Below, piece by piece: positions 20,621 through 60,402 of a stretch of 64,000 nt of DNA (position 1 is the stretch's first letter; each line of letters begins with the position of its first letter). The stretch is from positions 1-64,000 of the forward strand of contig UBQX01000003.1 of the NCBI GenBank assembly GCA_900467685.1, read 5' to 3'. The stretch comes from Hyphomicrobiales bacterium (GTDB taxonomy: Bacteria; Pseudomonadota; Alphaproteobacteria; Rhizobiales; Rhizobiaceae). Both the position numbers and the translations under genes were made by a program. Below the pieces are notes generated by a model. It was not told where the DNA came from and searched no databases. It was given only the letters and a program-made list of their open reading frames with translations.

Positions 20621-21250
20621 ATGAAGCAATATCTCGACTTCCTCCGCCATGTGAAGGAAACCGGTGTGGATCGCGGCGACCGCACGGGCACGGGCACGCG
20701 TTCCGTCTTCGGTTACCAGATGCGCTTCGACCTGTCGGAGGGCTTTCCGGTCACCACGACCAAGAAGCTGCACCTGAAATCGATCATTCACGAGCTTCTC
20801 TGGTTCCTGAAGGGCGAGACGAATATCGCCTATCTGCATGAGAATGGCGTGTCGATCTGGGATGAGTGGGCCGACGAGAATGGCGAACTCGGACCGGTCT
20901 ACGGCTCGCAATGGCGCTCATGGCCGGCGCCGGACGGGCGCAAGATCGACCAGATCGCCCTGCTGATCGAAAGCATCAAGACGAACCCGAATTCCCGCCG
21001 TCATATCGTGTCGGCGTGGAACCCGGCCGAAGTGGACGAGATGGCGCTGCCGCCGTGCCACTGCCTGTTCCAGTTCTATGTTTCCGACGGCAAGCTGTCC
21101 TGCCAGCTTTACCAGCGCTCGGCAGACATTTTCCTCGGCGTGCCCTTCTTTTCCGACATCAAGCGTGTACCTTCGATGTTAAGGCTTTGGATAAAAGATA
21201 TTTTCAGGAATTTTGTGATGGTACCAGTACCGTTTGGGCGATTGACTTGA
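20621..21250 (+). pseudogene. thyA: Host thymidylate synthase, 5' part, truncated by island
   Basis: Encodes about the first 176 residues of a normal ThyA, from [15 protein letters not shown] to the position VPF, then runs 34 codons into island DNA before stopping. The catalytic cysteine region [11 protein letters not shown] and the arginine pair SRRH are kept, but the C-terminal part with the asparagine, histidine and tyrosine that hold dUMP is missing. Its remainder lies at 60,130-60,402. Thymidylate synthase methylates dUMP to dTMP with methylene-tetrahydrofolate; this fragment should be inactive. The host promoter and ribosome site remain upstream and may serve the island copy that follows. 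Confidence 0.93.
21143..21161 (+). repeat. Left end: core CCCTTC plus 13-bp inverted repeat
   Basis: CCCTTC (21143-21148) belongs to the thyA codons for Pro-Phe and is followed by TTTTCCGACATCA. The right end has the mirror arrangement. A further shared word, GTACCT, lies at 21167-21172 and inverted at 60091-60096. This fits a tyrosine-recombinase site with a 6-bp crossover core and flanking arm sites. Confidence 0.85.
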
Positions 21251-21331
21251 TCGATCATTTTCTTCGAGTGGCCTATTGCTTCTGAATTCGGCCGTAGCCA
21301 GACTTGTTGTTATGTCCATAGGAATTTGAAG

Positions 21332-22264
21332 ATGGCCCGCCACCCTGAGTACCAGTATCTTGACCTGATAGAACACATTCTTGAGCATGGAGATCGTCGC
21401 ATCGACCGTACCGGAGTTGGTACGTTGTCGGTCTTTGGCGCTATGATGCGTTTCGATTTGTCAGATGGGACGTTCCCGATTTTCACGACGAAGCGCGTTT
21501 ATTGGAAAACGGCCGTCAAGGAGATGCTTTGGTTCCTGACGGGTCAGACCAATATTCAGTCTTTGCTAAAAGAGAACGTGAAAATCTGGACGGATTGGCC
21601 GTTGGACAAGTACCGAAAGTCGACTGGGGAGCAAATCTCTCAGGAGGATTTTGAAGCACGTATCCTTACCGACGATGCATTTGCGGCTGCCTGGGGTGAT
21701 CTCGGCCCGATATATGGAAAGCAGTGGCGACGCTGGCTCGATGCCGACGGAAACGAGCATGATCAGATCGCGACCCTTATTCAAACGCTGAAGACAAACC
21801 CGTCGAGCCGCAGAATGCTTTTTCATGCTTGGAACGTCGCTGAGCTTGCTCAGATGGCACTTCCGCCTTGTCACATGACGTATCAGTTTCATGTGACCGG
21901 GCTTGGTGACGAACGAGGCGGGCGCGCATTTGGTAAGGCGAAATTACAACTTATGGTTGTTCAGCGTTCATGTGACCTAGGTCTTGGCAATCCATTCAAT
22001 ATCGCACAAGAAGCTGCTCTCCTGCATATGGTTGCGCAGCAGGTAGACATGACGCCAGGAGAATTGATCTGGATTGGCGGCGATACGCATCTGTATCTGA
22101 ACCATTTAGAAATGGCCAGTACACTACTGAGCCGCGAGCCTCGTCCGTTTCCGAAGTTGCGTCTTGCGAGAAAGCCGGATTCAATCGACGGGTACACGAT
22201 TGATGATTTCGAAGTCACTGAGTATGATCCTCATCCGGCCATTGTTGCACCCGTCGCGGTGTGA
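21332..22264 (+). CDS. thyA: Island-borne complete thymidylate synthase (310 aa)
   Basis: Full-length ThyA that should replace the broken host enzyme. It converts dUMP to dTMP. Key parts are present: RTGVGTLSVFGAMMRFDLS, the catalytic cysteine in LPPCHMTYQFHV, the dUMP-binding QRSCDLGLGNPFNIA and the C-terminal GDTHLYLNHLE, ending IVAPVAV. It has an insertion around PLDKYRKSTGEQISQEDFEARIL that the host copy lacks and its wording differs throughout, so it is a foreign homologue and not a duplicate. ATG 21332 has AGGAA 7 nt upstream. It lies 82 nt after the stop of the truncated host copy, on the same strand, well placed to use the host thyA promoter. Confidence 0.95.
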   Translation: MARHPEYQYLDLIEHILEHGDRRIDRTGVGTLSVFGAMMRFDLSDGTFPIFTTKRVYWKTAVKEMLWFLTGQTNIQSLLKENVKIWTDWPLDKYRKSTGEQISQEDFEARILTDDAFAAAWGDLGPIYGKQWRRWLDADGNEHDQIATLIQTLKTNPSSRRMLFHAWNVAELAQMALPPCHMTYQFHVTGLGDERGGRAFGKAKLQLMVVQRSCDLGLGNPFNIAQEAALLHMVAQQVDMTPGELIWIGGDTHLYLNHLEMASTLLSREPRPFPKLRLARKPDSIDGYTIDDFEVTEYDPHPAIVAPVAV

Positions 22265-22454
22265 GAAGGTAATTTCTCCTCGATATGTAGTTGTGCTAAC
22301 CATCTGATAATGATGCTATTTTTTTAGTTTCCTCTGAAACGCCTTTAGGCGAAGGGGCATCCGCGTCTTACGGCAAAATAAGCGCCTTTTTTGAAATCAA
22401 AAATAAATCTCTCAGCACTACCCGTGTGAGCAAACCACGGGGACAGGTAATTCT

Positions 22455-25400
22455 ATGTCAAAAGAAACTGGTAAACCGGAAAGACGTCAGCGGTCCCTCA
22501 ACAACGGGTCGGCATCATCTCTTGAAGTAGCCGATTTTATTTCAAGGAACATCTATAATCTTCAGGACGATTTGAGGTCTATCCAGAATGGCGCTGCAAT
22601 AGAAGACTGCACCCTTGCCCTAAACGCACATCCCGATTCAGCTAATGTGCAGCGGATAACAATTGATCCGCCGTCGATGGCTGCAGACGAGAGCCGCCCG
22701 TCCTGCTTAATGCCTCGAAATATTGCGGACAACAATCTACCCGTAGCAACTCTATCGGGAACACCAACGCCAGCAGAGCGATATGCTGAAACCGTCACAC
22801 TTAGCGAGACCGCTCAGAAAGTGGTGTCGCTATATCCGGCTCTCGTGAACCATCAACATTACGCCAAGCACAGCACAGCCGATAAGATTGTCCAGATATT
22901 AAATGCTCAGATTTTCGCTGGCAGGTTAAAGAGAAGCAGAGGGGGCAAAATTGACAGGCAGTCAATCACGACTGAACTTGTCCTTTGTCAAACGGCATAT
23001 ATACCATATAGGCAAATAATTGAGGACTATGAAAAAGAAGTCGGTGACAAAGAATCCGTTACCGAAGCTAAGATTCCTGCGATGCGCCAGTGGCTGGAGC
23101 AGCAAATCGATCAAGGTGAGCTTCTTGTCCGCGACGGAAAATTCAGTCGCGTGCAATTATTTTCGCGATTTGGCTTGCCCAAAAGTTCATTAATTATACT
23201 TCGCTATCCACGTGTGGCCGAGCTTTTCGAAGAATTTGACAAGCGTATTGCAGATGAAGGGTATCAACCCAAAGAAGTCGCTGAAAAGCTGCGGAGGCTG
23301 AGTGAGATACTGGAGGAGCCACCCGTCGGCAAAGATGGGCAAACGATTGATAGGAAGGTGCTAAGTCAGCTGCTTCAAGTCCCGGTCAGTGCAATATCGC
23401 GAACCCCATATTTCGAAATCGTCAAAACCGCTGAAGAAAGATTCAGGGACACACTCGGGAATGACCCTTTCCTTGCGTTGGTGGGTGGCCGGGTCTTTAA
23501 ATTTCACTCGTTGCCTGAAGAAGGTTGGTCCCATTCGTTTACGATGAGGCTTAAGGCCAGCTTCGAACGACTGTATCATAAGCGGGGCAAAGACGCCGCG
23601 AAGGTTGCCTTTGCAGCTGCGACTGACTTATTGAGCTTTATTGCAGAGGGTCGTTCAGAGGCCTGTGTGACCCTCTTTGATGGGCTGTCCAACGGAGTTA
23701 ATCCGACGAGCCTAACAAGGCAATTTACACTAGCGACGCAGGCTTACCGAGATAGTCTTGCGGAAAGATACGCGCATACTCCGACTCGGAACGGAAAAAT
23801 TACCAATACAAATTCTGTTATCAAGCTTCTCAGCAACGACGGCATTTTCCCACCGCATGAGCTTGGTCTAATTGCATTCCGTGAAGACAATAGGAACCAT
23901 CTTCGCTCGGTTGCAGAAGTTCATGCGGCAACGCAAGGTAAATCAAGGTCGCCTCAAGTGGACGACTACCTAAGCTTCGCCACGTCGATGTTGAAGCAGG
24001 CTGCAGATGTCCGGCAGATTGAAATATCGGGCGCTGATCAGGGTGACTTCACTCGTGTCTTGCGAGCAGAACTGAAAAACCACGATTTCAAAATAGCTGA
24101 TGACCCTGCCAAGGTTATCCTCCATGTCTTGACCCGTCGCCTCGATCTACTCAAGACGGCTGCAACAGCAGTACTGAAAGTCGGGCGAGCGCGTTTGGAC
24201 CGGGGGAGGGAATTACTTGCGAAAGGCCGCGACCCTGGAGAAGTTCTTCACTACCTCGTGAAGAAAGGGCGAATGAACGAATATGAGAGAGTTAAGCTTC
24301 TTCGCACACATTTCCCAGTTGAGGAGTCAGGTCGTGAGCAAGGCATGGCAAACCTTCTCCGCATTGTGGCCGACCGCTATGGGTCCATATATCCTGGCGA
24401 GAAAACATTGGGTTCAGATGCAAGCCAATTCTTTCAAAAGCGTGCGCTCGATTACGGTAGCAGTTCGCTACTTCAGTCCTATCTTTTGCCATCGCAGGAA
24501 ACTGTGGCCGCTGCCATCACGCTCTATCTGCTTGAATCTGGTAGCAACGTCTCTGTCGGGCGAACGCTTTATGCCGACTGCGTGGAGCCTTCCGAAGAAC
24601 CGGGGCACAGCAAAGTAACGGGATACAAAGCAAGGGCGGGTGGCAAACCGATCTTCGTCACCCTCCATGACCGGTGCGAAGCGATCAACGGAATAAACTG
24701 GCTGCGGGAGGTATTCGCCGGTCATCCCAAAATCGAAGACGGGGATCGCAATCAACTTTTCCTTTGCAAGACCAAAGGTTATACCCTGAAGCTCGTCGAG
24801 GAGTGGACCTTCCGCGCTGAATTCAAGCGCCTGCTACAATCTATTCCGGAATTAGCTGATCTCCCACTCACTCCGAACATGCTGCGGCCGTCGATCTTGT
24901 TGAAAGCCGCGCTTGAGTCAGACGGGAAGACAGGTCTGTCGCGGGCTATCGGACAGCACGGTGCGCAGGTTCACGAAGGATACGTGAACAAATATCCCCT
25001 CAGATATCTGCGAGACACCGATATTCGTCAGTTTCAAGATGCAATGGAAACGGTCGTCATCCGCAACATCGAAGATGTTCAATCATTCCTGGGTGTGGAC
25101 CCCGAGAATATGGCCGGGCGTGTTGAGGCCGTGATGCGGACTGGCTTGGGCACGATGTGTTCCGACCGATATGGGAAACCTGGCCAAGAGGGAGAACTCT
25201 GTCAATCGCTCGACTGCGTTAAAGGTTGTCCGCAGCTCATTCTGATCGCTATCCCGAAAGAGATCGCCATTCTTCAAGTTTGGCAACATTCTCTCAGGCA
25301 GGTGGAAGGCGACTGGGTGCGCGACCAGCCAGACCGTTGGGAAAAGGTATGGCTTCCATGGCTGTGCTTTTGCGACGCTGTCGAGACGAAGATGCGTCAG

Positions 25401-25487
25401 TCTTTTTCCGATGTTTGGTCCGAGGCCACCGAAATCGCCAGCGGAGTGATTGCCAATCCCAATTTTGTGCCCATGAGGTTGTTCTGA
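22455..25487 (+). CDS. Large tyrosine-recombinase-like protein (1010 aa)
   Basis: First protein of the recombinase module. Most of its length is unfamiliar. The C-terminal part resembles a tyrosine recombinase catalytic domain: TPNMLRPSIL near residue 806 could be the HxxR motif with His replaced by Asn, and IGQHGAQVHEGYVNKYP near residues 830-845 matches the GH...Y motif with the likely nucleophile Tyr. Conserved cysteines in MCSDRYGKPGQEGELCQ and CVKGCP near the C-terminus may bind zinc. Its stop overlaps the next ATG (TGATG). It is unusually long compared with ordinary integrases of 300-450 aa. The assignment is moderate; the rest of the protein could be DNA-binding or accessory. Confidence 0.65.
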   Translation: MSKETGKPERRQRSLNNGSASSLEVADFISRNIYNLQDDLRSIQNGAAIEDCTLALNAHPDSANVQRITIDPPSMAADESRPSCLMPRNIADNNLPVATLSGTPTPAERYAETVTLSETAQKVVSLYPALVNHQHYAKHSTADKIVQILNAQIFAGRLKRSRGGKIDRQSITTELVLCQTAYIPYRQIIEDYEKEVGDKESVTEAKIPAMRQWLEQQIDQGELLVRDGKFSRVQLFSRFGLPKSSLIILRYPRVAELFEEFDKRIADEGYQPKEVAEKLRRLSEILEEPPVGKDGQTIDRKVLSQLLQVPVSAISRTPYFEIVKTAEERFRDTLGNDPFLALVGGRVFKFHSLPEEGWSHSFTMRLKASFERLYHKRGKDAAKVAFAAATDLLSFIAEGRSEACVTLFDGLSNGVNPTSLTRQFTLATQAYRDSLAERYAHTPTRNGKITNTNSVIKLLSNDGIFPPHELGLIAFREDNRNHLRSVAEVHAATQGKSRSPQVDDYLSFATSMLKQAADVRQIEISGADQGDFTRVLRAELKNHDFKIADDPAKVILHVLTRRLDLLKTAATAVLKVGRARLDRGRELLAKGRDPGEVLHYLVKKGRMNEYERVKLLRTHFPVEESGREQGMANLLRIVADRYGSIYPGEKTLGSDASQFFQKRALDYGSSSLLQSYLLPSQETVAAAITLYLLESGSNVSVGRTLYADCVEPSEEPGHSKVTGYKARAGGKPIFVTLHDRCEAINGINWLREVFAGHPKIEDGDRNQLFLCKTKGYTLKLVEEWTFRAEFKRLLQSIPELADLPLTPNMLRPSILLKAALESDGKTGLSRAIGQHGAQVHEGYVNKYPLRYLRDTDIRQFQDAMETVVIRNIEDVQSFLGVDPENMAGRVEAVMRTGLGTMCSDRYGKPGQEGELCQSLDCVKGCPQLILIAIPKEIAILQVWQHSLRQVEGDWVRDQPDRWEKVWLPWLCFCDAVETKMRQSFSDVWSEATEIASGVIANPNFVPMRLF

Positions 25488-27503: not shown

Positions 27504-28058
27504 GTGGCTGAATTGAGCGTGGCAGAACGCCTTGAGGCAATGCTAATACGATATACGGAGTGGGTTGAAACTGGCGTTCCGACCGGTGTCGATTTCAAGA
27601 CTTCTCTCAGTGCCGCTCACAACTGGTCGTGCCCGGAATTCGGTATTTTTGCCGTTAACTCGAAGCGGGACTGGAATACGAAATCGCCGGTTCATGGACC
27701 GATAGTTTCTCAGATTGGCAAGCTTCTTAAAAGGCTTCGCTCTGTTGATGAGGTACAGCGCGAGAACCTGAATTCGGTTTCGGTTGCTGGTAAGAAAGCA
27801 GTTCGGCCTTACAAAACACAGAAAGCCCGGCGTGTTGCGGCCGAAGATGAAGCCGAAACCCTAAAGATGATGCTGGAGGCAACCTCCCAAAAATATCACC
27901 AGCTCAGCCACAAAATGGAGCGTGTGGAAATCGATCTGGGCGTTCAGAAGGTTAGGAATGAGGAGCTGGAACACCGTAATCAGGCCTTGGAGCTTGAGAA
28001 TGCGCGGCTGAAGCGCATGTTGGCTTCGGGCCACGGCGGACTGAAGCTGGTGGAATAG
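27504..28058 (+). CDS. Coiled-coil accessory protein, TnpC-like (184 aa)
   Basis: Small protein between two recombinases. The C-terminal half (about residues 115-175) is a strong coiled coil (EDEAETLKMMLEATSQKYHQL and following heptads). By size, position and coiled-coil tail it resembles the accessory TnpC of Tn554-type transposons, which affects orientation and efficiency of insertion; this is an analogy from gene order and not from proven homology. The start is a GTG at 27504 with AAGGGG upstream. The next recombinase begins 3 nt after its stop. Confidence 0.6.
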   Translation: MAELSVAERLEAMLIRYTEWVETGVPTGVDFKTSLSAAHNWSCPEFGIFAVNSKRDWNTKSPVHGPIVSQIGKLLKRLRSVDEVQRENLNSVSVAGKKAVRPYKTQKARRVAAEDEAETLKMMLEATSQKYHQLSHKMERVEIDLGVQKVRNEELEHRNQALELENARLKRMLASGHGGLKLVE

Positions 28059-28061
28059 CTG

Positions 28062-29702
28062 ATGGTTTCATCAAAAGAGCGGGGCAAGGTGTACCACCAG
28101 CGCCTGGTAGAGCTTCTGAGGGAATGCGATCCAGACCAAATTCCATGTTTTAGAAGTCGTTTCTCCAGGCAATGGTTTGCTGAAAGGATTGGCTGTTCGA
28201 CCAACACTCTCAGCACCAGCTCACGTTTGCGAACGACCTTGGACGCGTGGGAGAGGTCACAGCAGCCCATAACCAGCCGGGCGGTGCCGAGCAACGACGT
28301 CAGCAATGTCGTGATGTTACGCGGTCGAACGCGTGCAGTCATCATGCCGGTGTCAGTGAAGATCGAGAAGAAGGATTTCACGATACCGACGCTGATTTGG
28401 CCGGACGGTTTAGACGAATGGGTTGCAGACTTTGCTCGCCACCAAATTGTCAGGGACAAGAAGAAGGTTTCTTCGGTCGAGGAGACGGTCAAAGTTTTGC
28501 GAATGTTTCGTCGTTTCCAAAGAGCACACCATGTGCCACACGATCAGGTAAACGATGATTTCCTGCTTTCATGGCAACACCAACAGAAGCAAGAAGGCGT
28601 ATCAACCAAGCGCCTAAATTACTGCATTTCAATCGTCCACGACTTTTACAAATGGGCGGATTCAACAGGGCGTCTCACCTATCATGTCCAGACGAAGCCG
28701 AAATACGACTATCGTGAGATTCCTGAGGATTATATATTTCCCATCTCAGGCAAAGAGGTAGAAGTTCGGCTGAGTAACGGACAACGGCACGTCAAATGGG
28801 TGTCGACCCTGTTCGACAACCGAGTTCATAGCTCCTATGGTTCGCGTCATACCCCGACCCCCGATGAAGTCCTTCGCGTTTTCGACGAGGCGAAAAAGGA
28901 GGGTCGCAATTCCGTTCGAAACCTGCTGATCTTGGTAGTGGCGCTGGAGACGGGTGCTCGCGTGAGCGAGATTGTCCAGATGAAGGTCAGCGATTTTCCT
29001 ACAATGGAAGAGCTTGGCACATTTATAGGCAAGAACGCGAAGCCGTACCTTGAGGTAGATGTTCAGCGGAAAAACCAGGGGAAGGGCCGTCTCCGGATAA
29101 ATCAGCAACTCGTTCTGAAGATCGTTGCCTATATCTATGGTGATGCACAGCGCCTCCGGATCATCGGACGAACCGGGAAAACGCAGCCAGCTAAAGACCA
29201 GTATGTTTTCTTGTCGGAGACGGGCAGGGCTCTCACAACCGACAGCGTAACACGAATAGCCGGTGGACTTTTCGATGCAGCGGGTGTCGAGAAAGCCAAC
29301 ATCCATCGCCTCAGGGCTCGTTATATTACCACGGTGATCGAGCTGCAGCTCGACCGGTTGGCGGAGGAGGGAGTTACCGTCAATCGTTCCGAGGCATGGG
29401 AGGAGCAAATTTTGGTCATGGCTGTCGAATTGATGGGCCATTCCCACCCTATGTCATTGCGACCGTATCTGAATGAAATTTTGCAAAGAAGGATGACCAA
29501 GGATGGACGTATCGATCAGCGGTCCGTTGAACAGCGGGAACGATCTGTCTCGGAACTAACGGAGCAGATGGCGTCGCAGATTTTTAGCTCGTCGCAACTG
29601 GCGCAAGCCAACCAGCTTTTATTGGCCCGGAAGACAAGTGAAGCGGTTAGCGTTCTATCGGAACTCATTCAAAAACTATCAACAGCTCGGGTCGAAACCT
29701 AA
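28062..29702 (+). CDS. Tyrosine recombinase / integrase (546 aa)
   Basis: Last gene of the module. Typical tyrosine recombinase motifs: ALETGARVSEIVQMKVSDF (first arginine, about residue 297), IHRLRARYITT (HxLR, about 415) and LMGHSHPMSLRPYLNEIL (GH...Y, about 457-470). An N-terminal SAM-like core-binding segment precedes them (FRRFQRAHHVPHDQVNDDF). It has all the residues needed for strand exchange and is the most canonical of the three recombinases. With the three upstream genes, spaced by overlaps or a few nucleotides, it forms one operon likely to integrate and excise the island at thyA. Confidence 0.85.
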   Translation: MVSSKERGKVYHQRLVELLRECDPDQIPCFRSRFSRQWFAERIGCSTNTLSTSSRLRTTLDAWERSQQPITSRAVPSNDVSNVVMLRGRTRAVIMPVSVKIEKKDFTIPTLIWPDGLDEWVADFARHQIVRDKKKVSSVEETVKVLRMFRRFQRAHHVPHDQVNDDFLLSWQHQQKQEGVSTKRLNYCISIVHDFYKWADSTGRLTYHVQTKPKYDYREIPEDYIFPISGKEVEVRLSNGQRHVKWVSTLFDNRVHSSYGSRHTPTPDEVLRVFDEAKKEGRNSVRNLLILVVALETGARVSEIVQMKVSDFPTMEELGTFIGKNAKPYLEVDVQRKNQGKGRLRINQQLVLKIVAYIYGDAQRLRIIGRTGKTQPAKDQYVFLSETGRALTTDSVTRIAGGLFDAAGVEKANIHRLRARYITTVIELQLDRLAEEGVTVNRSEAWEEQILVMAVELMGHSHPMSLRPYLNEILQRRMTKDGRIDQRSVEQRERSVSELTEQMASQIFSSSQLAQANQLLLARKTSEAVSVLSELIQKLSTARVET

Positions 29703-29837: not shown

Positions 29838-32800
29838 TCAGTTCGTAAGCCTCGGGAATAGAGGCTGCCAGACGATTTTTTCGTCCCGCCGACCTTTTGA
29901 ATGCAAAATAGGCAAAGAATTGTTCGGACAATTCGCCGGGAATAATACAAGTATACCTAAACTTCCAAAACCTAATGGGTTGTCCTTGTAAATTTGAGCG
30001 CCCAAGTCTCTCGCAAGCGATTTTGCTCGCTCCCTCTCATTATCAGAATTCCAAATCGTATTGCTCTCGCTAAAGGCAAAATTTTCTTCCGAAAGAAGCT
30101 CGCAATATCGCAGGTCGCCACCAAGCCATTCCAATTCACTCAACGCAGCTCTTACCGCAGCATCTCCCTCCTTCGTCGCAACCAGCGTCAGTATCATAAC
30201 CGGCACGTTCAACTTTTGCAGCACAGTTCGGTGTTCGGCGGCGAATGCAAGCAAGTTTTTCCGAACGGAGCTACCTGTCGCAACCAGGTCGTCGACAATG
30301 ACGATAGCAGAGGGTGAGGGGGAATCCTTAATATGGTCCTGCAGGTTAATTGAGAAGTTTCGCGGAGAAATTATGCACTTGACGCTAAGGTTGTTCTCTT
30401 CCGCGTACCTTGACGCGTAATATTGGCCACTTTTTCCCTCGCCATCGAGATAGGTGATCAAAACATCCATTCGCCGTTCGGAGCGTTTTCGTTGAATGAA
30501 TTCGGGTAGCATCGGCCTTACCAGGCTGTGCAGGGTTTTTAGTCTTTCTCGTATCTCCGCTTCATCATAAAAACGAAGTGCAGTGAGGAGTTTGAATAAG
30601 AGCCTCTGCTCCTGATGGGTCTTGACTTGGTTTAACCAAGCCCGCACATCATCCGCGCCAATTTGCCTCCCTTGGTAGGTGGGCCATTTCTTTACCAATC
30701 GCGATATCTCGTCCGCAGTCACATAGGCGGCGTCTTCAGCCTGCAAGATTGTTGACGCTAATTCCTCCCCGAGTGTATCTGCCAAGAGACGATTTATTCC
30801 AACTTCGGTTAGCCACGATCTGAATATAGGCAGGACAAATTCATAGTTCTTGTTGGTTTCCGTTAGAATTCCTCGTTTAACAAAATCATTCAGCACAGGT
30901 AGGACTTCACTGTCAGCCAAACCGATCCCGTCTCTTCCTGCCAAAACGCCTGCCAAATTAACATTGCCGCCACGCCGAAATGCTCGACCTAGTGCAACCA
31001 ATGTTCTAGATCGCCTTAATATATCGGGCTCTCTCTCCGCCGGGAGTTTATGGATTCCATCCATCCAGAGGTGTGCGAACGAATTAACATCAAAGGTGCG
31101 AATATTCGAAGCTAGGCTGTTACGAACCTCTTGCAGAGTAACATCTGCATCGCGCTCTCTAACAGAATTTTGAAATACGCTCGAACATACAATTTTTGCA
31201 AAATATGGATTGCCGTTCGTTAAGTTAAATATTTCAGATACTGCGTCTTCATGCCAGTAAATTGAGTTCTCCGTTGGTTTCCGGACAAGAGTCTTAAAAT
31301 CATCCCAATCATGCTCGCGGCTGAAATAATCCAAACGAAATGGGATCAGTTTATTAAGTTTCTGACCCTGCCGATCCATTATGAAAGGCATGTTTTCACC
31401 GCCGACGAGCACCAGGCAAAGATTTTCGCAAGTAGTCAGGGCTCTTAAGTTAGCAAAGAAGGTCTCCGCCAAATTGCCTTGCTGATACAGTTCGGGATGT
31501 ATCTCATCGAATTCGTCAAGGATAAGGACATACTTTAAATCGGGGCACTCTTCATACGCGAGATCAGCAAGGCGCGTGAGGGGGGCAAGTGATCCGTTGA
31601 AATTGAGGTCTGGGATGGCCGTGTCTCTTGGCAAAGTGGATTTGATGAAAGCGGCTACACGCTCTCCCAACTCCCGCATGGAAGCCCTTGGATCATCGTG
31701 GGCAATCCTGCCCCAAAGTAGATAATGAGTATGAATTGAAGAAGGTGAATGCGACCTTGCAAATTCTGCGGCCGCCAAAGCTAGAGAAGTTTTGCCGATC
31801 CGCTTTTGTCCGGTGACGAAAAACGGTTCCATAGGCTGACGGAGCATGCGGTTCGCTAGTGATTTAACTTGGTCACTGCGTCCCACGAAAGCCTCGCCCT
31901 TGGCCACATCTGTACTGTATGGATGTTGGTATTCTAGCGATGCCCAATCGACATTGGCACTCTGTGCATTTACTTCGACCAAGAAGATGTTCTCGTGAGG
32001 TTCTGCATGACCGGCTTCATCCCATGTCACGGTAACCATCAAATCCATACCCTCACTTCGTGACAAGACCTTGGATTTGAAAACGGCAGCGAAATCACCT
32101 GGAACAACGTTGCCTAGCGCGTGATTTTCGTTCTCTATTTGAAGCTGTTGGCGGTCGTATTCGACGGTCACATTTACGTTCAAAGCGATCCCAGGACCTG
32201 AACTACGAAGGGGAATGATTATAGATATGTCGCGTCCAATATCGTGAAGCGGATAGCGCTTCTGAAGCGTCCCACTGCCGATAGTTCTTGCGGCGATATT
32301 TGTTTTTGCCTTACCTCGTGTTGAGCTGACAATTTTCTCAATTGCTTGGGTGGCTGCCGAGATAAACGGGTCGAAATATTGTCGAACAAGGAAGGATGCT
32401 TTCTCCTCGATATATGCTCTCTGCTCTCGTAGGTAAGCATCTGCATCGGATAGATCACTCCAAAAGCTGTCGGATTCCTTGGCAAGCCGGGCGATTTTTT
32501 TAATCGCTACATCCACTCGTGTCCTGACCTGTTGTACATCGAATGGACCACAATAAGCCTTTACAACTCCATTATTCAGGGCACTAAGAACTTGCTGCCT
32601 TGAGGCCAAAATTCCGTCGATATCGCTCGAAACGGCCGACAACGGGGCGAGAATAACCGTTATTCTTGCATGCGCACCAGCAAGTGTATTTATCTTCTCG
32701 TGGGTTTGCCTCTTCTCTAGTGATCCTGAAAACTGTGCGACTTCTGGGAGGTTCCTCTCGCAAAGCTCAACAACAAAGCGTTGGTCACACTCCAACTCCG

Positions 32801-33083
32801 GATGATCCATGAGACCATCAACGCTGAGGGCGTGGATCAAGATGGCTGCCTCCGCCAAGCAAGGTGTTCCGTCACGCGACAGTTGTTGGACTGCTGCGCC
32901 GAACGTTGCTGTATCTGACTGTACTCGTGAAACTACGATATGCGACAAGCTCTTTGCTGCGTTATCTGTCCAATCTGGTAGCGATTTGTCTCGGAGCAGA
33001 GCGGCCTCAAACTCATTGACGAGTGTGCTCAGTGATCTGACTGTGCGATCTATGTTTTGCACATCTTCAGTATTTTCGACCAA
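29838..33083 (-). CDS. STAND-like ATPase fused to phosphoribosyltransferase-like domain
   Basis: 1081-aa multidomain protein. Residues 1-270 are mainly helical; about 275-385 look beta-rich; about 395-720 form a P-loop ATPase with Walker A GQKRIGKTS (425-433), Walker B YVLILDEFDEIHP (520s) and a segment typical of AAA_16/STAND ATPases (FVGRSDQVKSLANRML). The C-terminus has a phosphoribosyltransferase signature VIVDDLVATGSS (about 928-939). Sensor-ATPase-effector layouts of this kind are typical of phage-defence proteins, with the PRTase-like domain as possible effector; this role is inferred. The gene sits convergent to the recombinase operon. A short upstream reading frame overlaps its ATG, so it was probably the second gene of an operon. 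Confidence 0.7.
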   Translation of the reverse strand: MVENTEDVQNIDRTVRSLSTLVNEFEAALLRDKSLPDWTDNAAKSLSHIVVSRVQSDTATFGAAVQQLSRDGTPCLAEAAILIHALSVDGLMDHPELECDQRFVVELCERNLPEVAQFSGSLEKRQTHEKINTLAGAHARITVILAPLSAVSSDIDGILASRQQVLSALNNGVVKAYCGPFDVQQVRTRVDVAIKKIARLAKESDSFWSDLSDADAYLREQRAYIEEKASFLVRQYFDPFISAATQAIEKIVSSTRGKAKTNIAARTIGSGTLQKRYPLHDIGRDISIIIPLRSSGPGIALNVNVTVEYDRQQLQIENENHALGNVVPGDFAAVFKSKVLSRSEGMDLMVTVTWDEAGHAEPHENIFLVEVNAQSANVDWASLEYQHPYSTDVAKGEAFVGRSDQVKSLANRMLRQPMEPFFVTGQKRIGKTSLALAAAEFARSHSPSSIHTHYLLWGRIAHDDPRASMRELGERVAAFIKSTLPRDTAIPDLNFNGSLAPLTRLADLAYEECPDLKYVLILDEFDEIHPELYQQGNLAETFFANLRALTTCENLCLVLVGGENMPFIMDRQGQKLNKLIPFRLDYFSREHDWDDFKTLVRKPTENSIYWHEDAVSEIFNLTNGNPYFAKIVCSSVFQNSVRERDADVTLQEVRNSLASNIRTFDVNSFAHLWMDGIHKLPAEREPDILRRSRTLVALGRAFRRGGNVNLAGVLAGRDGIGLADSEVLPVLNDFVKRGILTETNKNYEFVLPIFRSWLTEVGINRLLADTLGEELASTILQAEDAAYVTADEISRLVKKWPTYQGRQIGADDVRAWLNQVKTHQEQRLLFKLLTALRFYDEAEIRERLKTLHSLVRPMLPEFIQRKRSERRMDVLITYLDGEGKSGQYYASRYAEENNLSVKCIISPRNFSINLQDHIKDSPSPSAIVIVDDLVATGSSVRKNLLAFAAEHRTVLQKLNVPVMILTLVATKEGDAAVRAALSELEWLGGDLRYCELLSEENFAFSESNTIWNSDNERERAKSLARDLGAQIYKDNPLGFGSLGILVLFPANCPNNSLPILHSKGRRDEKIVWQPLFPRLTN

Positions 33084-41700: not shown

Positions 41701-41910
41701 TTGGCAGGAAACGACGTTATGCAAGGACTGCATCGTGCGGCAGACAGGTTGGCGTTGAGCCAGATCATTCAGTCCGAAGAAAGTGACGGCTCACTTCGGA
41801 TCGCAAAGCTTAATCAGGCAAGGTATTGGACCAAAACGCAGGCAAGAGCGCTCGCGACAGACATCATTCTTACGCGCATTGACGAACTCAAAAAGGAAAT
41901 CGCCGCGTGA
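38760..41910 (+). pseudogene. m6A DNA methyltransferase split by pentamer repeat
   Basis: One gene read in two frames. The first (38760-40016) has an N-terminal domain of unknown role, GRALFSRFLADRNLL typical of Eco57I-like enzymes, and SAM motif I VLDPAVGAGIFL. It loses frame at four CTTCG repeats (39966-39985) and stops at 40016. The second frame, from about 39986 to 41910, continues LGLYLAAIELDP and contains the catalytic NPPW motif (DIVIGNPPWSK) and a target-recognition-like region. With two or five repeats the frames join into one protein of about 1046-1051 aa. So the enzyme is off in this genome copy but may switch. The first start codon (TTG 38760) is uncertain. Confidence 0.82.
39966..39985 (+). 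repeat. Four tandem CTTCG pentamers, candidate phase-variation tract
   Basis: CTTCG occurs four times in a row, followed by a degenerate CTGCG. Frame arithmetic: the upstream frame starts at positions divisible by three and the downstream frame one base later, so loss of two units or gain of one restores the full methyltransferase frame. Two, five or eight units are on; three or four are off. Confidence 0.75.
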
Positions 41911-48652: not shown

Positions 48653-49117
48653 AGGGAAGGGCTCAGATCGGTCGAGTGCCGGTGCAGCGTGGAAAGTTCG
48701 AGCATCCCCAAAACTGTCCACCACGGTTGCGACCTTGTCTGGCTGTGCGTTTCACCATTAAACGGTTGCACATGGGGCAAGTTGGCGTTGGGTTGCCCTA
48801 GAGATGTTCCGCTGCACAGTATGGAAGTTACCCCAACCTACCGACCTGGCTTAATGTTTTTTGGACGAGCCTGGGTGCTGCCATTGGAGCTGGTGTCGTG
48901 GTCTCGATTTGTGGCATCGGCAATCATCTGATTCCGGATCATTGACGCGAGAGGCTTCAACGTTTCTTGGGGCGTCCTTCCATCCCTCCATTCGTGCTGT
49001 GCCCGCCGCAGTAACAGCTTCACAAAGCCTTTGTTAGCTGATGTCGTCATCCGGATTGCAGTGCCCGCTCGCTTAATGGTAGTTTTCGAACGCTATCACA
49101 CCTTAACGGGGACGCAA
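48653..49117. other. Intergenic region before luxR
   Basis: About 460 bp. A leftward frame at 49050-48838 (70 aa, beginning MTTSANKGFVKLLLRRAQHEW) is plausible as a small gene but has no recognised family. Nothing else was seen; promoters for luxR must lie here, but no consensus was clear. Confidence 0.35.
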
Positions 49118-49861
49118 GTGACGACATCGCGGCAGTTCAATACGAACGTCCTTACGGATTTCGTGACCAAGGCGATGCAGGTGACCACCAAGGAGGAGAT
49201 CATGTCTCTTCTTGACGCGGTGGCACACCATTACGGAATGGACACGTTCGCCATTTCTGGAATTCCGCTGCCTGGTGAACGAATTGACCCATATGTTCTA
49301 CTGAACGCTTGGCCGAAGGATTGGTTTGCGCGCTATGCGGAGAAGAATTTCGTACAGTTTGATCCCGTCATTTACCGTACCAAAATCACGAATGATGCTT
49401 TTGTGTGGTCTGAGGCGCTCGGCAATCAACGCCTAGGCAAAGGCGCTCGGCGGGTTATGGCCGAAGCAACTGAGTTCAAGATGCTCGATGGCTTCAGCGT
49501 ACCGCTTCATGGGATTCACGGGTTGCAGGCCATCGTGACGTTCAGTGCGGAGAAAGTCGATCTGTCGGAAGAAATGCGGGCGACTCTGCAACTCATAGCA
49601 ATTTACGCTCATAATCGACTGCGGGCCATGCTGCATGAGGACGCGATGCAGCCAGCCCGTGATCGGCTTAATGTGACGCCTCGTGAACAAGAAATTGTCA
49701 TGTGGTTCGCTGCCGGAAAAAATGCCTGGGAGACCGCCCAAATCCTTGGGATATCCGAAAAGACCGTCCGCCACCAGATCGAGCACCTGCGGCGAAAATT
49801 GAACGTCGTCAACGTTGCTCAGATGATCGCGGAAGCGTTCAGGCTCGGCATCATCCGCTAA
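49118..49861 (+). CDS. LuxR-family quorum-sensing regulator
   Basis: Acyl-homoserine-lactone responsive transcription factor. The N-terminal half is an autoinducer-binding domain (signatures WPKDWFARYAEKNFVQFDPV and GLQAIVTFSAEK). The C-terminal half is a LuxR HTH: LNVTPREQEIVMWFAAGKNAWETAQILGISEKTV..., complete to the recognition helix. Start choice is uncertain between ATG 49076 and GTG 49118; GTG has GGGGA upstream and gives 247 aa, near the family norm. It stands about 80 bp before luxI on the same strand with a lux-box-like dyad between. Confidence 0.88.
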   Translation: MTTSRQFNTNVLTDFVTKAMQVTTKEEIMSLLDAVAHHYGMDTFAISGIPLPGERIDPYVLLNAWPKDWFARYAEKNFVQFDPVIYRTKITNDAFVWSEALGNQRLGKGARRVMAEATEFKMLDGFSVPLHGIHGLQAIVTFSAEKVDLSEEMRATLQLIAIYAHNRLRAMLHEDAMQPARDRLNVTPREQEIVMWFAAGKNAWETAQILGISEKTVRHQIEHLRRKLNVVNVAQMIAEAFRLGIIR

Positions 49862-49865
49862 TGCA

Positions 49866-49883
49866 ATAGGTTGTATGACCTAT
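49866..49883. promoter_or_regulatory. lux-box-like dyad upstream of luxI
   Basis: ATAGGT-TGTATG-ACCTAT is a perfect 6-6-6 inverted repeat of 18 bp, starting 5 bp after the luxR stop and 59 bp before the luxI ATG. Size and position are as for LuxR binding sites that drive autoinduction. Confidence 0.72.
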
Positions 49884-49941
49884 ATATTAAGGCGCAGCAG
49901 TCCCCGCATCATGGATGCATTTGATGAGGTCGGGGGACACC

Positions 49942-50649
49942 ATGATAAAAGCCATTTGGAATATAGAACCATCTGCCAATATTCCTCTATTCGAGAAGGT
50001 TTGGCGTTTTCGCCACCGTCATTTTGTCGACCGGTTCGGGTGGGAGGCTTTACGGAAAGCCGACGAGCGAGAAATCGACCAGTTTGACACCGCAGACGCC
50101 ATCCATTTGCCCTTGATCGATGATGAAGGGCAGGTTCTCGGGTACAGCCGTCTTCTGAAGTCGACAGCTCCGCATCTATTGTCTGACGTCTATCCGGAAC
50201 TGATGGACGGGCGAACATGGCCCACTGGGGAGACGATTTACGAGTGGACACGTTGCGTTGCCGAGCCGAATGCGACGATACGGGGCATTCAGGCGTCAAA
50301 TGTATTGCTGACAGGAGTGCTGGAATATTGTCTGACATCGGGCATTTCGGCGTTGATCGTCGAAACCCACCCGAAGCTGGTACAGCTCCTGGTCAATAAT
50401 GACTGGAACGTTTTGCCGTTGTGTTCTCCAACCATGCTTGGGACCGATCTGGTTTTGCCGATCCACGCCGAGATTTCAGCACGGGCCCTGATGGCACATC
50501 ACCGAAACTACGGCATCAATGGCAGCCTTCTTGATCTGTCATTTTGTCCGGCCAATCCCCTCCGGCCGCATGATGAACTGCGGAGGCTGCCTTACCTCGA
50601 CGGGCAGCATGTGGATGTCAGCGCCGCAATGCGCATCGCAGGAGAGTGA
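49942..50649 (+). CDS. LuxI-family acyl-homoserine-lactone synthase (235 aa)
   Basis: Makes an AHL signal from S-adenosylmethionine and an acyl carrier. Conserved residues are visible: RHRHFVDRFGW (Arg, Phe, Trp of the N-terminal pocket), EIDQFDTADA (Asp), LGYSRLL (Arg) and IYEWTRCVAEP (Glu, Arg). ATG 49942 has GGGGGA 5-10 nt upstream. The chain length of the signal cannot be read. It forms a cis pair with the luxR upstream and a 68-aa gene 3 nt downstream. Confidence 0.92.
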   Translation: MIKAIWNIEPSANIPLFEKVWRFRHRHFVDRFGWEALRKADEREIDQFDTADAIHLPLIDDEGQVLGYSRLLKSTAPHLLSDVYPELMDGRTWPTGETIYEWTRCVAEPNATIRGIQASNVLLTGVLEYCLTSGISALIVETHPKLVQLLVNNDWNVLPLCSPTMLGTDLVLPIHAEISARALMAHHRNYGINGSLLDLSFCPANPLRPHDELRRLPYLDGQHVDVSAAMRIAGE

Positions 50650-56996: not shown

Positions 56997-57060
56997 TGAT
57001 GGCTCCTGCAATGTCTGGGTGGGGGAGTTGCGGCTTCAGCGATTGGACTATTGCGAAGCG

Positions 57061-59055
57061 CTATGAGGTGAGAGCCCGTGCAGGCCCCACAGGTTCAAGC
57101 AGCCTCTCCAAACGCTCTCCTGAGACGCGATGCTCTTTCTGAAGAGCGAGTGCTAAGTCCAAAACAACGTGCCAATGGGCTTTTAATGCGTCTTTCGACC
57201 TCTCGTATTCTGTCCTGAGTATGAAATTAATCTCTCGGTGAATTTCCGTACTGTGCTCAGGGAGGTGCCGTTCGAGAGGATCAAATGTTGTCCCGGGAAA
57301 AACACACAAAGAGCGCCCCATACCGAAAGAAGCGATCATTTGCCTTGCAATTTCAGACGTCTTCGCGAGATCGCTGCCGCTGGAGCCACCAGCGGATGTT
57401 GACTTATCGCCGAAGTGAATCTCTTCCGCGACTAACCCACCGAGCTGCATGGCAATATCGTCACGAAGTGAAGTTTCGCTTTGTATTATTCGAAGGGGCT
57501 TCGTGACGACCATGCGGCCGCTCAAGTTGTCCGTTCCGTCAATTATCGCGAGATCGGCCGGAGCAGCTTCTACCTCTACAATTTTTCCGACAGAAAACAG
57601 CTTTGCCAAGATGGCATGTCCTGCCTCGTGGATGCATATCCTCCAGACCTCGTCACCGCTCAAAGCTGGCGGAGTGGGTAATTGTTGCAGCAGGTCCTCG
57701 GATGAGACCTGGCGACCGTCAATTCGAGCACGCTGTTTTGCTCGACGTGCTAAATATTCGATATCCGCACCCGTTGCCCCCCGGAGTAAAGTGGCTGCGG
57801 TGCCGAGTGCCTCCTGGTCTAGGTCGGGCAGATAATACTGTAAGATTGATGCACGAGTATCGACGTTAGGCTTGGCTAGCTCCAAATGCTTTTCAAGCCG
57901 ACCGGGACGCAACAAAGCAGGATCGATTTTCTGATGAAAGTTCGATGCGCCGATTACGATCACGCCTTCGCGTTGCAAGCACCCATCCACGAGTTCCAGC
58001 AATCCGTTGACGACCTCGGAGCAGTAGTGAGCGTTTTCGCCCACAAATTGCGCCCGATCACCTATAGAATCCAATTCATCAACCAGCAGAACGGATGGTG
58101 CTTCACTCCGCGCCAGGGCGAAGTCAGAATGCATGCTCTTTAGCAAGTCACCTAAGTGTCCGGCACTTTGCCATTTTGCCAGTGAGGTGGCAATCAATGG
58201 CACTTCGAGATATTGAGCCAAGGATGCAGCGAAGGTTGATTTTCCTGTCCCAGGTGGACCATAGACCAGCACCCCTTTATCAATTTCCTTCCACGCCAGC
58301 GTTCCGGCGCGCCACGACATAAGGTCTTGACGAAGGTGTTCCGCCCAACTGTGAGCTTCGCCAAATGCTTGCATCGGTAGGATTTTGGCTGATGCTTCGG
58401 ATTTCTTTGTCAGATGCCGCAGACGTTCAATAACCGGAGAAGCCGAGCGACCTTTCCGGAACGCCGCATCTATAAAGGTGGAAGGATTTTTGCGCAAAAA
58501 TTCCTTGTCGACGTCGTTGATGACGCCAGTGTCCAATACCGTTGTCAACGCATCCAGATGTCGATCTGACACGGGTTCAAGTGAGACGATCATGTCGGCG
58601 GCAGCTTCGATTTCCGGGTGCAGCTGAGTGCCGGAGTGGGCGAACACGAGGACCTTGGTTGAAGCTAAAACTTCCTCTGGGTTAAAATCCCAGCGGCGCT
58701 TTCTATCCCGGAGCTTGGGGTGGCTAAATATTGCCAGGAAATCTGGCTTGCGGCCGTCATTGTACAAGCATGCCTTCGCGCACCGTTCGATATCATCAAG
58801 CGACCATGTCGGTGGGACGACAACCAAAAGCACGAAATTTGGACTTGTCAGAAAATCTTTGCAGCTGCGCAACAGTCTTACGATTGCGCAACAGCAAAGA
58901 AACAGTCGTGGTGATTTCGGTAGTATTTTAACTGCCGCGTTCCGGCTCAACTCCAGGTGAGTGGGGTGCTGCCGGTGTTTTTCGGCCTCAGAAGCCTTGC
59001 GAGCCGTTTTCATAAGTTGGCCAGCTTTCTCCACAAAATCATCAAGGGCGTTCAT
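57061..59055 (-). CDS. Soluble FtsH-like AAA metalloprotease (664 aa)
   Basis: AAA ATPase with Walker A GPPGTGKS (266-273), Walker B LLVDELDSI (about 323-331) and pore/second region ending near RPGRLEKHLEL, followed by an M41 peptidase domain: zinc motif HEAGH (476-480) and the third ligand Asp about 562 in SGSDLAKT. FtsH proteins normally have two N-terminal membrane spans; here only one weak hydrophobic patch (LLVVVPP) is seen and the ~240-aa N-terminal domain differs. It is therefore a cytosolic FtsH relative likely to degrade specific targets. Its ATG overlaps the stop of a small upstream gene (ATGA). Similar pairs occur in mobile DNA of rhizobia; a conflict role is inferred. Confidence 0.85.
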   Translation of the reverse strand: MNALDDFVEKAGQLMKTARKASEAEKHRQHPTHLELSRNAAVKILPKSPRLFLCCCAIVRLLRSCKDFLTSPNFVLLVVVPPTWSLDDIERCAKACLYNDGRKPDFLAIFSHPKLRDRKRRWDFNPEEVLASTKVLVFAHSGTQLHPEIEAAADMIVSLEPVSDRHLDALTTVLDTGVINDVDKEFLRKNPSTFIDAAFRKGRSASPVIERLRHLTKKSEASAKILPMQAFGEAHSWAEHLRQDLMSWRAGTLAWKEIDKGVLVYGPPGTGKSTFAASLAQYLEVPLIATSLAKWQSAGHLGDLLKSMHSDFALARSEAPSVLLVDELDSIGDRAQFVGENAHYCSEVVNGLLELVDGCLQREGVIVIGASNFHQKIDPALLRPGRLEKHLELAKPNVDTRASILQYYLPDLDQEALGTAATLLRGATGADIEYLARRAKQRARIDGRQVSSEDLLQQLPTPPALSGDEVWRICIHEAGHAILAKLFSVGKIVEVEAAPADLAIIDGTDNLSGRMVVTKPLRIIQSETSLRDDIAMQLGGLVAEEIHFGDKSTSAGGSSGSDLAKTSEIARQMIASFGMGRSLCVFPGTTFDPLERHLPEHSTEIHREINFILRTEYERSKDALKAHWHVVLDLALALQKEHRVSGERLERLLEPVGPARALTS

Positions 59056-59382
59056 TGATCAGCATCCGGAGTTTTGGAAGCAGGCTCTCCGAGGCGGTAC
59101 CACCTGTTTTGTGAACGGGCCAGCCGATGCTCTAAGCTCCAGCAAATCAGCTCGGTAGTGATGCCAATATGCCCATCTGAAATGGTGGGATGTCCGCACA
59201 TCCGACCAATCAGAACTGGCACCGCGCGACGGGCGACGGCCCACTGTGAAATGGTAGTTTTTGTGGTGACCGCTTGTGGCCCAAGATTGCCGTAAATCTC
59301 TAGGTCATCCGCTAGCCTTCGAAGAGAGCTGATCAGCTCTTCTGTGCTGCTCTCCGGCGTGTTGGGAAACTCATTCCACATA
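59052..59382 (-). CDS. Small partner of the FtsH-like protease (109 aa)
   Basis: Starts MWNEFPNTPESSTEELISSLRRLADDLEIYG; no family recognised. Helical N-terminus and several conserved-looking Arg/Cys/Trp residues (IGRMCGHPTISDGHIG, ICWSLEHRLAR). Stop overlaps the protease ATG, so the two are translationally coupled. It could be an adaptor or a substrate/toxin controlled by the protease. The XRE gene lies divergent, 143 bp away. Confidence 0.6.
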
Positions 59383-59458
59383 TTCCACCTCACGATTCGA
59401 TTTCCTCGTCGAGCTAGACGACTCGACTTTCAAAAAAAGAAAACATTCTTTCGTTTGA

Positions 59459-59492
59459 GTCAACATTGTTTTCTATTTTCGCAAATGTTGAC
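59459..59492. promoter_or_regulatory. GTCAACAT-N18-ATGTTGAC operator-like dyad
   Basis: Perfect 8-bp half-sites with an 18-bp AT-rich spacer, exactly between the divergent protease-partner gene and the XRE gene. Very likely a binding site of the XRE protein controlling both directions. Confidence 0.6.
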
Positions 59493-59524
59493 AGACCTTT
59501 TTTGAGGTGCGCATTTTCCGAATT

Positions 59525-59803
59525 ATGGACATCAATTATTCGCCAGAAATGTTGAGGGCTGCGAGAGCTTTGCTCGGGCTTGATGCTCGTGAATTCGCTG
59601 CCATCGTGAATATTTCTCCGCCCACTCTTCGTAATGCTGAAAGCGGGAAAAGGAACGTGTCTTTGGACACAATTGAGCGAATTCAAGCTAAGTATGAAGA
59701 GCTTGGAATAGAGTTCACGCTCGCAGGACCTGGATACGGCGCTGGCGTGAGGTGGAAGGTTCCTAAACCCAAGTCACGGAAAAAAAATTCTATCCGCTCC
59801 TAA
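59525..59803 (+). CDS. XRE-family HTH regulator (92 aa)
   Basis: Start ATG 59525 (MDINYSPEMLRAARALLGLD). Helix-turn-helix about residues 17-45 (DAREFAAIVNISPPTLRNAESGKRNVS). Typical small XRE repressor, divergent from the FtsH-like protease operon. It is also the last island gene and reads towards folA, so its transcript might supply folA expression. Confidence 0.82.
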   Translation: MDINYSPEMLRAARALLGLDAREFAAIVNISPPTLRNAESGKRNVSLDTIERIQAKYEELGIEFTLAGPGYGAGVRWKVPKPKSRKKNSIRS

Positions 59804-60099
59804 ATTGTACTGAACCGTTCCTTCGATGAAAATACATGTTTGCCTCAAAGCCCAGAGGGTCCTGGTCGGCTGATCGCCGATATAGAGACGGCCTGTGGCC
59901 GTCACATTATTTTATTAGAAAGACTGACTTTCGGCTTAGCGGTGATCACGCCGGTCAGTCTTTCTAATCGATGCGGAATCCGCCTTAAGGCGGATACTTT
60001 ATTCCTGGCGCTATCGCGCAAAACTCCGTCGGCTGCTTGCGCAATTTACGAACGTCGGCGATGCTGAAGTGATGAAGGTTGCGCCGAATGAGGTACCAA
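59804..60099. other. Structured noncoding DNA at island right end
   Basis: About 300 bp without a gene, holding three strong dyads: GACGGCC-TGT-GGCCGTC (59887-59903) followed by ACATTATTTTATT, which could terminate transcription; ATTAGAAAGACTGAC (59914-59928) matched by GTCAGTCTTTCTAAT (59954-59968), a perfect 15-bp stem; and the perfect 18-bp palindrome ATCCGCCTTAAGGCGGAT (59978-59995). They lie 120-240 bp inside the right inverted repeat. Accessory recombination or excision sites, or an oriT-like structure, are possible. Confidence 0.6.
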
Positions 60100-60402
60100 A
60101 TGAACATAAAAACTGATGATGTCGGAAAACCGTTCAACATCGCGTCCTATGCACTGCTGACGATGATGGTCGCCCAGGTCACAGGTCTTCGCCCCGGCGA
60201 TTTCGTCCACACGTTCGGCGACGCCCATCTCTATCACAACCATTTCGAACAGGCTGAAACCCAGCTGAAGCGGGAGCCCAAGCCGCTGCCGTTCATGAAG
60301 ATCAATCCCGACGTGAAGGATATTTTCTCCTTCAGGTTCGAGGATTTTGAGCTGGTCGGCTATGAGGCCGACGCGACGATCAAGGCGCCGATTGCGGTAT
60401 GA
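60100..60402 (+). pseudogene. thyA: Host thymidylate synthase, 3' part
   Basis: From CCGTTC at 60130 the host ThyA resumes as [23 protein letters not shown] and [12 protein letters not shown] to the final APIAV. An island ATG at 60100 ([11 protein letters not shown]) puts it in frame, so a 100-aa fragment could be made but would lack the catalytic cysteine. Its stop overlaps the folA ATG (ATGA at 60399-60402), which shows the original thyA-folA operon. Confidence 0.93.
60117..60135 (+). repeat. Right end: 13-bp inverted repeat plus core CCGTTC
   Basis: TGATGTCGGAAAA (60117-60129) is the exact reverse complement of the left end, and CCGTTC (60130-60135) resumes the thyA frame with AACATCGCG. 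The core differs from the left copy by one base, at a wobble position of the proline codon, so the original thyA can be rebuilt with either. Confidence 0.85.

Follow-up and report, generated by a model that had tools for sequence, protein, structure and literature searches.

A candidate integrative element that splits thyA and carries a replacement thyA, with relatives in Alpha- and Gammaproteobacteria

We describe here a 38,981-bp element that sits inside the host thyA gene (encoding thymidylate synthase) of a Hyphomicrobiales bacterium, and which carries an intact but divergent thyA of its own, next to four genes of a putative recombinase module. The window, by which we mean the whole stretch of DNA that was analysed (64,000 nucleotides), lies on contig C30 of a 5.05-Mb draft genome (43 contigs, completeness 99.99). 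The original prediction had placed an island of about 39 kb in thyA; its exact extent proves to be 21149-60129, with a 6-bp spacer at either side. We consider it very probable that the window holds one member of a family of integrative elements that insert site-specifically, break thyA, compensate for the damage with their own thyA, and are thereby locked into the genome. The arrangement recurs in other genomes, and is therefore no chance pattern. The features on which this reading rests are as follows (ORF, open reading frame).

20621-21142, forward: 5' part of host thyA (PF00303 match 20624-21148), which joins with the 3' part and ends in the left half-site GGCGTG (21137-21142)
21143-21148, forward: left 6-bp spacer, CCCTTC
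21149-21160, forward: left terminal inverted repeat, TTTTCCGACATC, with GGTACC-type repeats further inside
21332-22264, forward: island thyA, of the long type by its place in a tree (PF00303, E 8.8e-108, 362 bits); a further open start, TTG, lies upstream at 21326
22455-25487, forward: ORF1, large tyrosine-recombinase-like protein, 1010 amino acids
25484-27475, forward: ORF2, tyrosine-recombinase-like by alignment, about 660 amino acids, no Pfam or NCBIfam family
27504-28058, forward: ORF3, small protein placed by alignment, 184 amino acids, no Pfam or NCBIfam family
28062-29702, forward: ORF4, tyrosine recombinase by PF00589 (E 5.1e-11) and alignment, 546 amino acids
60118-60129, forward: right terminal inverted repeat, GATGTCGGAAAA, with a GGTACC motif immediately inside
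60130-60135, forward: right 6-bp spacer, CCGTTC, which in the frame of thyA reads Pro-Phe
60136-60402, forward: 3' part of host thyA (PF00303 match 60085-60399), with folA (60399-60914) next

We propose the following model for how such an element might enter a genome and persist there. Its target would be a single codon boundary, between Gly-Val-Pro-Phe and Asn-Ile-Ala, where thyA is highly conserved; ORF1, ORF2 and ORF4, together with ORF3, would recombine the terminal inverted repeats and a 6-bp crossover spacer with this site. Insertion would break thyA and the complete, divergent thyA that lies upstream of the module would come along, such that the recipient, being supplied with a complete gene, would keep thymidylate synthesis. 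Deletion of the element, or at least of its thyA, would then cost the cell its thymidylate synthase, whilst decay would be expected to leave the replacement gene behind, and excision would restore thyA if the right-hand spacer is retained.

The split in the host gene is a clean one. The frame breaks after GGCGTG and resumes at 60130/60136, and when the flanks of the window are joined in silico they produce one open frame of 264 residues, which aligns without gaps to the intact ThyA of four genomes of the same genus (259, 260, 257 and 221 of 264 residues identical in G004, G005, G001 and G003). Both the predicted gap-free rejoining of the two parts and the comparison with uninterrupted relatives proposed as its check are thus borne out, with 257-260 of 264 residues identical in three of these genomes; in G002, the remaining same-genus genome of the sample, thyA is likewise split. 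Downstream of thyA, folA and hflKC follow in the window and in relatives alike. A tmRNA gene (19684-20036) lies just upstream of thyA and is not the insertion site.

Three PF00303 matches are present in the genome itself, namely the two native halves and the island gene, and a profile search of the 43-contig draft gave no PF02511 (ThyX) match; the island gene is therefore the only intact thymidylate synthase found. It encodes a protein of about 310 amino acids in the same orientation as host thyA, and this protein shares 133 of 264 aligned residues with that of the host (50%, the host join being taken with one extra Phe), which agrees with the intact, divergent gene at the start of the element that had been predicted. 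The stretches PPCH, QRSCD, GGDTHLY and DRTGVGT, which we take to be catalytic, are kept. The idea that the island gene has been recoded against re-insertion (its best 18-mer has 3-7 differences from the host site in seven elements) was weakened, as these residues also vary among long-type ThyAs that stand alone.

At the left junction (21137-21160) the sequence reads GGCGTG, CCCTTC, TTTTCCGACATC, and at the right junction (60118-60141) GATGTCGGAAAA, CCGTTC, AACATC; the terminal inverted repeats are perfect over 12 bp at both ends, and repetition in direct order is limited to the spacers CCCTTC and CCGTTC. Both of these encode Pro-Phe, and therefore either excision product would restore the frame and the residues of thyA. 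In 3-kb steps, G+C is 46-54% inside the element and 59-64% outside. Several hairpin-like inverted repeats were noted by eye at 59870-60000, near the right end, in a stretch partly conserved in G002 and Brucella (Ochrobactrum) oryzae.

Of the four module genes, ORF4 is assigned by its Pfam family; ORF1-3 matched no Pfam or NCBIfam family, and hence no TetR family either. ORF1, judged by its predicted structure, may be a tyrosine recombinase, and the alignment of ORF2 has invariant R335, R448, H472 and Y481. The C-terminus of ORF3 is charged and, by eye, coiled-coil-like. Searching the Protein Data Bank (PDB) by sequence returned nothing for ORF2, one weak match for ORF4 and, for ORF1, only albumin at E ~0.3.

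An ORF1 profile was scanned against 84,980 genomes, each from a different species, a set that possibly leaves the genome of the window outside. Seven loci were found, five of which combine a split native thyA, an island thyA and the module: those of Rhizobium redzepovicii, Oryzibacter oryziterrae, Tardiphaga robiniae, B. oryzae and the gammaproteobacterium Methylophaga thiooxydans. The two distant loci, in Arenibaculum and Roseicella, are not at thyA; purC was considered as the split target beside the Roseicella module and was rejected, there being two full-length copies and no split. A RecD2-like helicase lies beside the recombinases of distant non-thyA modules (L062, 15259-17583, by Pfam; L165, 6354-8573, by eye).

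In a census of the bacterial family to which the window belongs, PF00303 was matched in 384 of the 394 genomes searched, and a broken native thyA together with an intact long-type thyA in six of the 384 (G000, which is the genome of the window, G002, G894, G968, G1107 and G1141). The module is present in three (G000, G968 and G1107); the contig of G1141 ends just past thyA, and G002 and G894 are without it. Altogether this makes 11 split-thyA loci, seven with an uninterrupted module, or eight when counting B. oryzae, where several of the island thyA and module genes are interrupted in the assembly (L059, 9014-16744), perhaps through sequencing error. The order of native 5' thyA, island thyA and four module genes is found in seven genomes besides that of the window, across other families of the order and one gammaproteobacterium, and the cut falls at the same thyA codon wherever it is readable among the 11 loci. 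The distance between the native halves varies widely, from 1.7 kb in G002, through ~26 kb in B. oryzae, 39 kb in the window, 43 kb in Oryzibacter, 66 kb in Methylophaga and 90 kb in G1107, to 129 kb in G968; the 3' part falls on a separate contig in R. redzepovicii and Tardiphaga, and in Methylophaga it contains a stop. A whole replacement thyA beside a four-gene recombinase module was what the original prediction proposed, with a search for the same pairing elsewhere as its check; the seven further genomes (the frames being interrupted in one) establish it as a recurrent unit.

The element is nonetheless rare and patchy. ORF4 had matches in 6 of 397 genomes of an order-wide sample, three of them strong, and the ORF1 profile in 1 of 385 genomes of a class-wide sample, that one being the window's own. 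Among viral contigs, 26 pattern matches to ORF1 included no relative; neither ORF1 in 72,556 plasmid records nor ORF2 in 50,697 phage records gave a match at 1e-5. An ORF2 profile matched four times in 321 gammaproteobacterial genomes, once in the Methylophaga element and once on a 3.8-kb contig; around the other two loci no ThyA was seen by eye in 20-kb ORF lists, for which no family search was made.

We next consider whether thyA and the module travel as one, for which pairwise identities were compared between seven elements, the interrupted B. oryzae genes being excluded. Identity of the island ThyA ranks with that of ORF1 (Spearman 0.92, 5 of 5040 permutations as high) and of ORF2 (0.88, 18 of 5040). 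With Methylophaga left out, ORF2 has a coefficient of 0.78 (14 of 720) and native ThyA one of 0.60 (13 of 720). Oryzibacter and Tardiphaga make the informative comparison: their island ThyAs are 82% and ORF2 proteins 52% identical, against 53% for the 5' parts of native ThyA, which differ because one of the native genes is of the long type and the other standard; island genes this similar beside native parts only 53% alike argue that thyA and module travel together.

The terminal repeat varies between elements. In Tardiphaga and Oryzibacter it is TTTTCCGGCAT at the left and GACCGGAAAA at the right; a tandem GGTACC[A/G]GTACC stands just inside seven of the eight left ends compared, and GGTACC just inside five of the eight right ends, with GGTACA in G002. 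Right spacers could be read at nine loci (the G1141 contig is without a right end and G894 is decayed): CCGTTC in the window, G968, Tardiphaga, R. redzepovicii and B. oryzae, CCCTTC in G002 and G1107, GCCTTC in Oryzibacter and, by eye, AACTTC in Methylophaga. All nine continue the thyA frame with the expected aromatic codon. Left spacers, readable at ten loci, are more varied, being CCCTTC in the window and G1107, TGTTTC in G1141 and R. redzepovicii, CCGTTT in Oryzibacter, AATTTC (by eye) in Methylophaga, and CGGACA, AAGGAC, CCGAGG and CAGATG in G002, G968, Tardiphaga and B. oryzae respectively. The last four are unlike the thyA site and do not encode the target residues, and so excision there would restore thyA only with the right-hand spacer kept. 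SEs and Tn554 are described as carrying a 6-bp piece of their former site at one end (PMC10214605, in the part of that account drawn on here); by analogy, some donor sites of the present elements may have lain outside thyA.

Two of the 11 loci appear to be remnants. In G002, the 1.7 kb between the thyA halves consists of both element ends, an intact ThyA of 303 amino acids and an ORF1 stub; the left 1.5 kb is collinear with the B. oryzae element (70% DNA identity) and the right end with that of the window (76%), and it is best read, given this collinearity on both sides, as a full element that has lost its interior. In G894 the replacement thyA is intact and is accompanied by a short scrap of the 5' part and a broken remnant of the 3' part; no module gene was found among the 42 kb read there. 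The two loci are as expected if an element can lose all but its replacement gene.

These remnants bear on the alternative that fares best, namely that the replacement gene does no more than make good the damage of insertion, with no selected addiction and with excision readily restoring thyA. We rate this a little short of even. Compensation at the moment of insertion would suffice for the anatomy, and in the window both spacers encode Pro-Phe, such that the frame could be restored from either excision product; set against it are the intact replacement genes that G002 and G894 retain after loss of the module, and the four of ten left spacers (CGGACA, AAGGAC, CCGAGG, CAGATG) without codons for the target residues. 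The anatomy implies lock-in, selected or not; the remnants and left spacers speak for it as a consequence, which is not to say that it was selected. The element had been likened to a self-enforcing addiction at a metabolic gene: the lock-in itself gains natural support from the two loci where thyA is intact and the module gone, whereas a selected addictive function is not separable from the plain repair of damage done by insertion.

Several observations weigh against an element of the kind we favour, and should be set beside the evidence in its support. Identity of the island ThyA also ranks with that of native ThyA (Spearman 0.83, 8 of 5040 permutations as high), from which it follows that host lineage matters and that much of the spread may be within lineages. 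Taken alone, the Foldseek comparison of ORF1 has a best E of 1.8e-3, short of 0.001, and the predicted structure of ORF2 (mean pLDDT 61), which has no PDB match at E<=0.001, gives weak support. In Oryzibacter, ~35 kb of other DNA separates the native 5' part from the island thyA, with the module at the right; in Methylophaga, ORF3 is assigned by position with no tblastn match, and the ends have no clear copy of the terminal repeat. Finally, no sigma-70-type promoter was found in front of the island thyA of the window; the gene, which would be expressed at once, may for this reason depend on read-through from the host promoter. That an insertion at a fixed codon, with its own spare thyA, nevertheless recurs in several bacteria makes such an element probably hard to lose.

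Between the module and the right end lies the remainder of the island.

29838-59803, strand not assigned: variable cargo

The cargo includes PRTase/ATPase, RepB- and ParB-type proteins, a serine recombinase, a split type IIG-like methylase and a CARF-type protein, along with LuxR/LuxI, a trypsin-like protein, an AAA-M41 protein and an Xre-type regulator. It also offers a second alternative, in which an ordinary genomic island would owe its movement to the serine recombinase inside it (36156-37730), or to another element, with thyA and the recombinase genes as passengers. The serine recombinase has Resolvase and Recombinase domains and partition-type neighbours, and it does lie inside the island; yet it is unmatched in the stretches read of other elements (the large ones being read in part only), whereas thyA, ORF1, ORF2 and ORF4 are common to the module-bearing elements, and we hold this alternative to be improbable. 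Least probable of all, to the point of being hard to credit, is that a second thyA arrived first by ordinary horizontal transfer and a later insertion in the old gene was tolerated by chance: many relatives do have a long-type ThyA with no element at the thyA locus, but in 7/7 elements with an uninterrupted module the replacement is part of the element itself, upstream of ORF1 and oriented like it, and a module at thyA with the spare thyA elsewhere, as this would predict, was not seen.

Some of the cargo deserves mention in its own right. As far as other elements were read, three cargo proteins have matches there and no more: the AAA-M41 protein, the small one next to it, and a phosphoesterase. 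The AAA-M41 protease-like protein and small neighbour (57061-59393) recur in G968, G1107 and R. redzepovicii, and the large protein also in Oryzibacter; PADLOC gives a match to IetA for this pair. The RepB- and ParB-type partition proteins with the large serine recombinase (34377-37730) are possibly a nested element. A LuxR/LuxI-type quorum-sensing pair lies at 49031-50649, and a type IIG-like restriction-methylase at 38760-41910 is split across two adjacent frames. The PRTase/ATPase protein (29838-33083) and a pair of ORC-CDC6-like and CARF-like proteins (44305-47171) are possibly defence genes.

Long-type ThyAs are also found on their own in the family, in 37 genomes by PF00303 score (36 with a single match, and G1024 with two); a further candidate, G1147, was rejected as a contig-truncated standard type. 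In a tree of 28 of these 37, nine island ThyAs and 15 other ThyAs (the Methylophaga island ThyA and the interrupted B. oryzae genes not being included), the island proteins fall inside the long-type clade, with some stand-alone ones nested among them, such as those of G319 and G384 beside G002. Of 14 stand-alone loci read widely, those of G012 and G022 among them, 13 have folA in the stretch (not G384; ~8 kb away in G319), and none has a separate piece of a standard ThyA at E 1e-3. Matches to 11 bases of the terminal repeat occur in two of the 14, single and unpaired, downstream of thyA in G384 and 6 kb upstream in G923, with no thyA sequence beside them, and may be due to chance; the G384 match is at L147 7420, and the ThyA of G384 and that of the G002 remnant are sisters in the tree. 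With no leftover thyA and no paired repeats, the stand-alone long types may simply be native, and we would say that they may be either native genes or fossils of past swaps. We speculate, tentatively and with more doubt than conviction, that insert-and-rescue elements have repeatedly replaced the host ThyA, the stand-alone long types being fossils of decayed insertions and the left spacers a record of earlier landing sites outside thyA. If true, this would be a case of a core metabolic enzyme being rewritten by a mobile element.

Should the family have been read correctly, it would explain how a gene that is normally needed can house islands that put 1.7 to 129 kb between its native halves, and would provide a natural case of element lock-in via core metabolism; a divergent thyA in a genome may then signal an element, not a duplication. 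The three unclassified module proteins extend the little-known multi-recombinase elements.

Amongst known systems, integrative and conjugative elements of Acinetobacter share thyA as the insertion target but are described as conjugative and as carrying resistance regions, with no replacement thyA mentioned in the part of that report drawn on here (PMC12904642); Pfam found no relaxase or type IV secretion families, and hence no conjugation genes of these kinds, among the 28 non-thyA island ORFs scanned. GInts have three tyrosine recombinases and a small protein at one island end, variable cargo and site-specific insertion (PMC5385486), much as the present element has three tyrosine-recombinase-like proteins and a small one. 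Their order is ginABCD with the small gene last, whereas here the small protein is third and ORF4 last, and they have imperfect direct repeats of 10-17 nt in place of 6-bp spacers in direct order; the portion of the paper used does not speak of a replacement for the target being carried, and the likeness is one of description. Two nearly identical GInts of P. aeruginosa, which are said to lie where a duplicated gene for ribonucleotide reductase ends (PMC5385486), may be a related arrangement. SEs and Tn554 have terminal imperfect inverted repeats (13-19 bp in SEs), a 6-bp footprint, few targets and several recombinases (PMC10214605), and in the window we likewise see predicted ends with 12-bp inverted repeats and a 6-bp footprint. 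SEs are also reported to yield a strand-biased circle that leaves no empty site, as in copy-out. The SE order, intA-tfp-intB-srap, differs from that found here (large tyrosine-recombinase-like, tyrosine-recombinase-like, small, tyrosine recombinase), and the hosts in that account, so far as it was drawn on, are Gammaproteobacteria or Firmicutes, with no target replacement mentioned. GInts and SEs thus appear the closest recombination machinery, in other gene orders.

The closest precedent for the strategy is that of Wirth and colleagues, who describe an island in tmk of Pseudomonas putida KT2440 that supplies the missing kinase, similar islands with four shared orthologs that break tmk in several genera, and stand-alone replacements in other strains (PMC10653934). 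There, too, an essential gene of the thymidylate pathway is split, the replacement activity is carried and the cargo varies, and the window has the same anatomy of a split native gene with a putative replacement inside the island. The differences are that the target is tmk, not thyA, that the replacement is a T4-related deoxynucleoside monophosphate kinase, that the four orthologs are a TetR-family protein, two tyrosine recombinases and one of unknown type (the modules being compared by description), and that the genera named, in the part of the paper drawn on here, are gammaproteobacterial (PMC10653934). The strategy itself is therefore already published for the Pseudomonas tmk islands; in the open-licence PMC literature we recognised no report of a thyA island with a replacement thyA, and the swap of thyA for thyA, the unclassified module, the spread over two classes and the remnants that document lock-in appear to be new. 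If we have read the family correctly, carriage of a full replacement for the broken gene is a strategy that mobile elements can repeat, here extended to a second target gene and found in Alpha- as well as Gammaproteobacteria.

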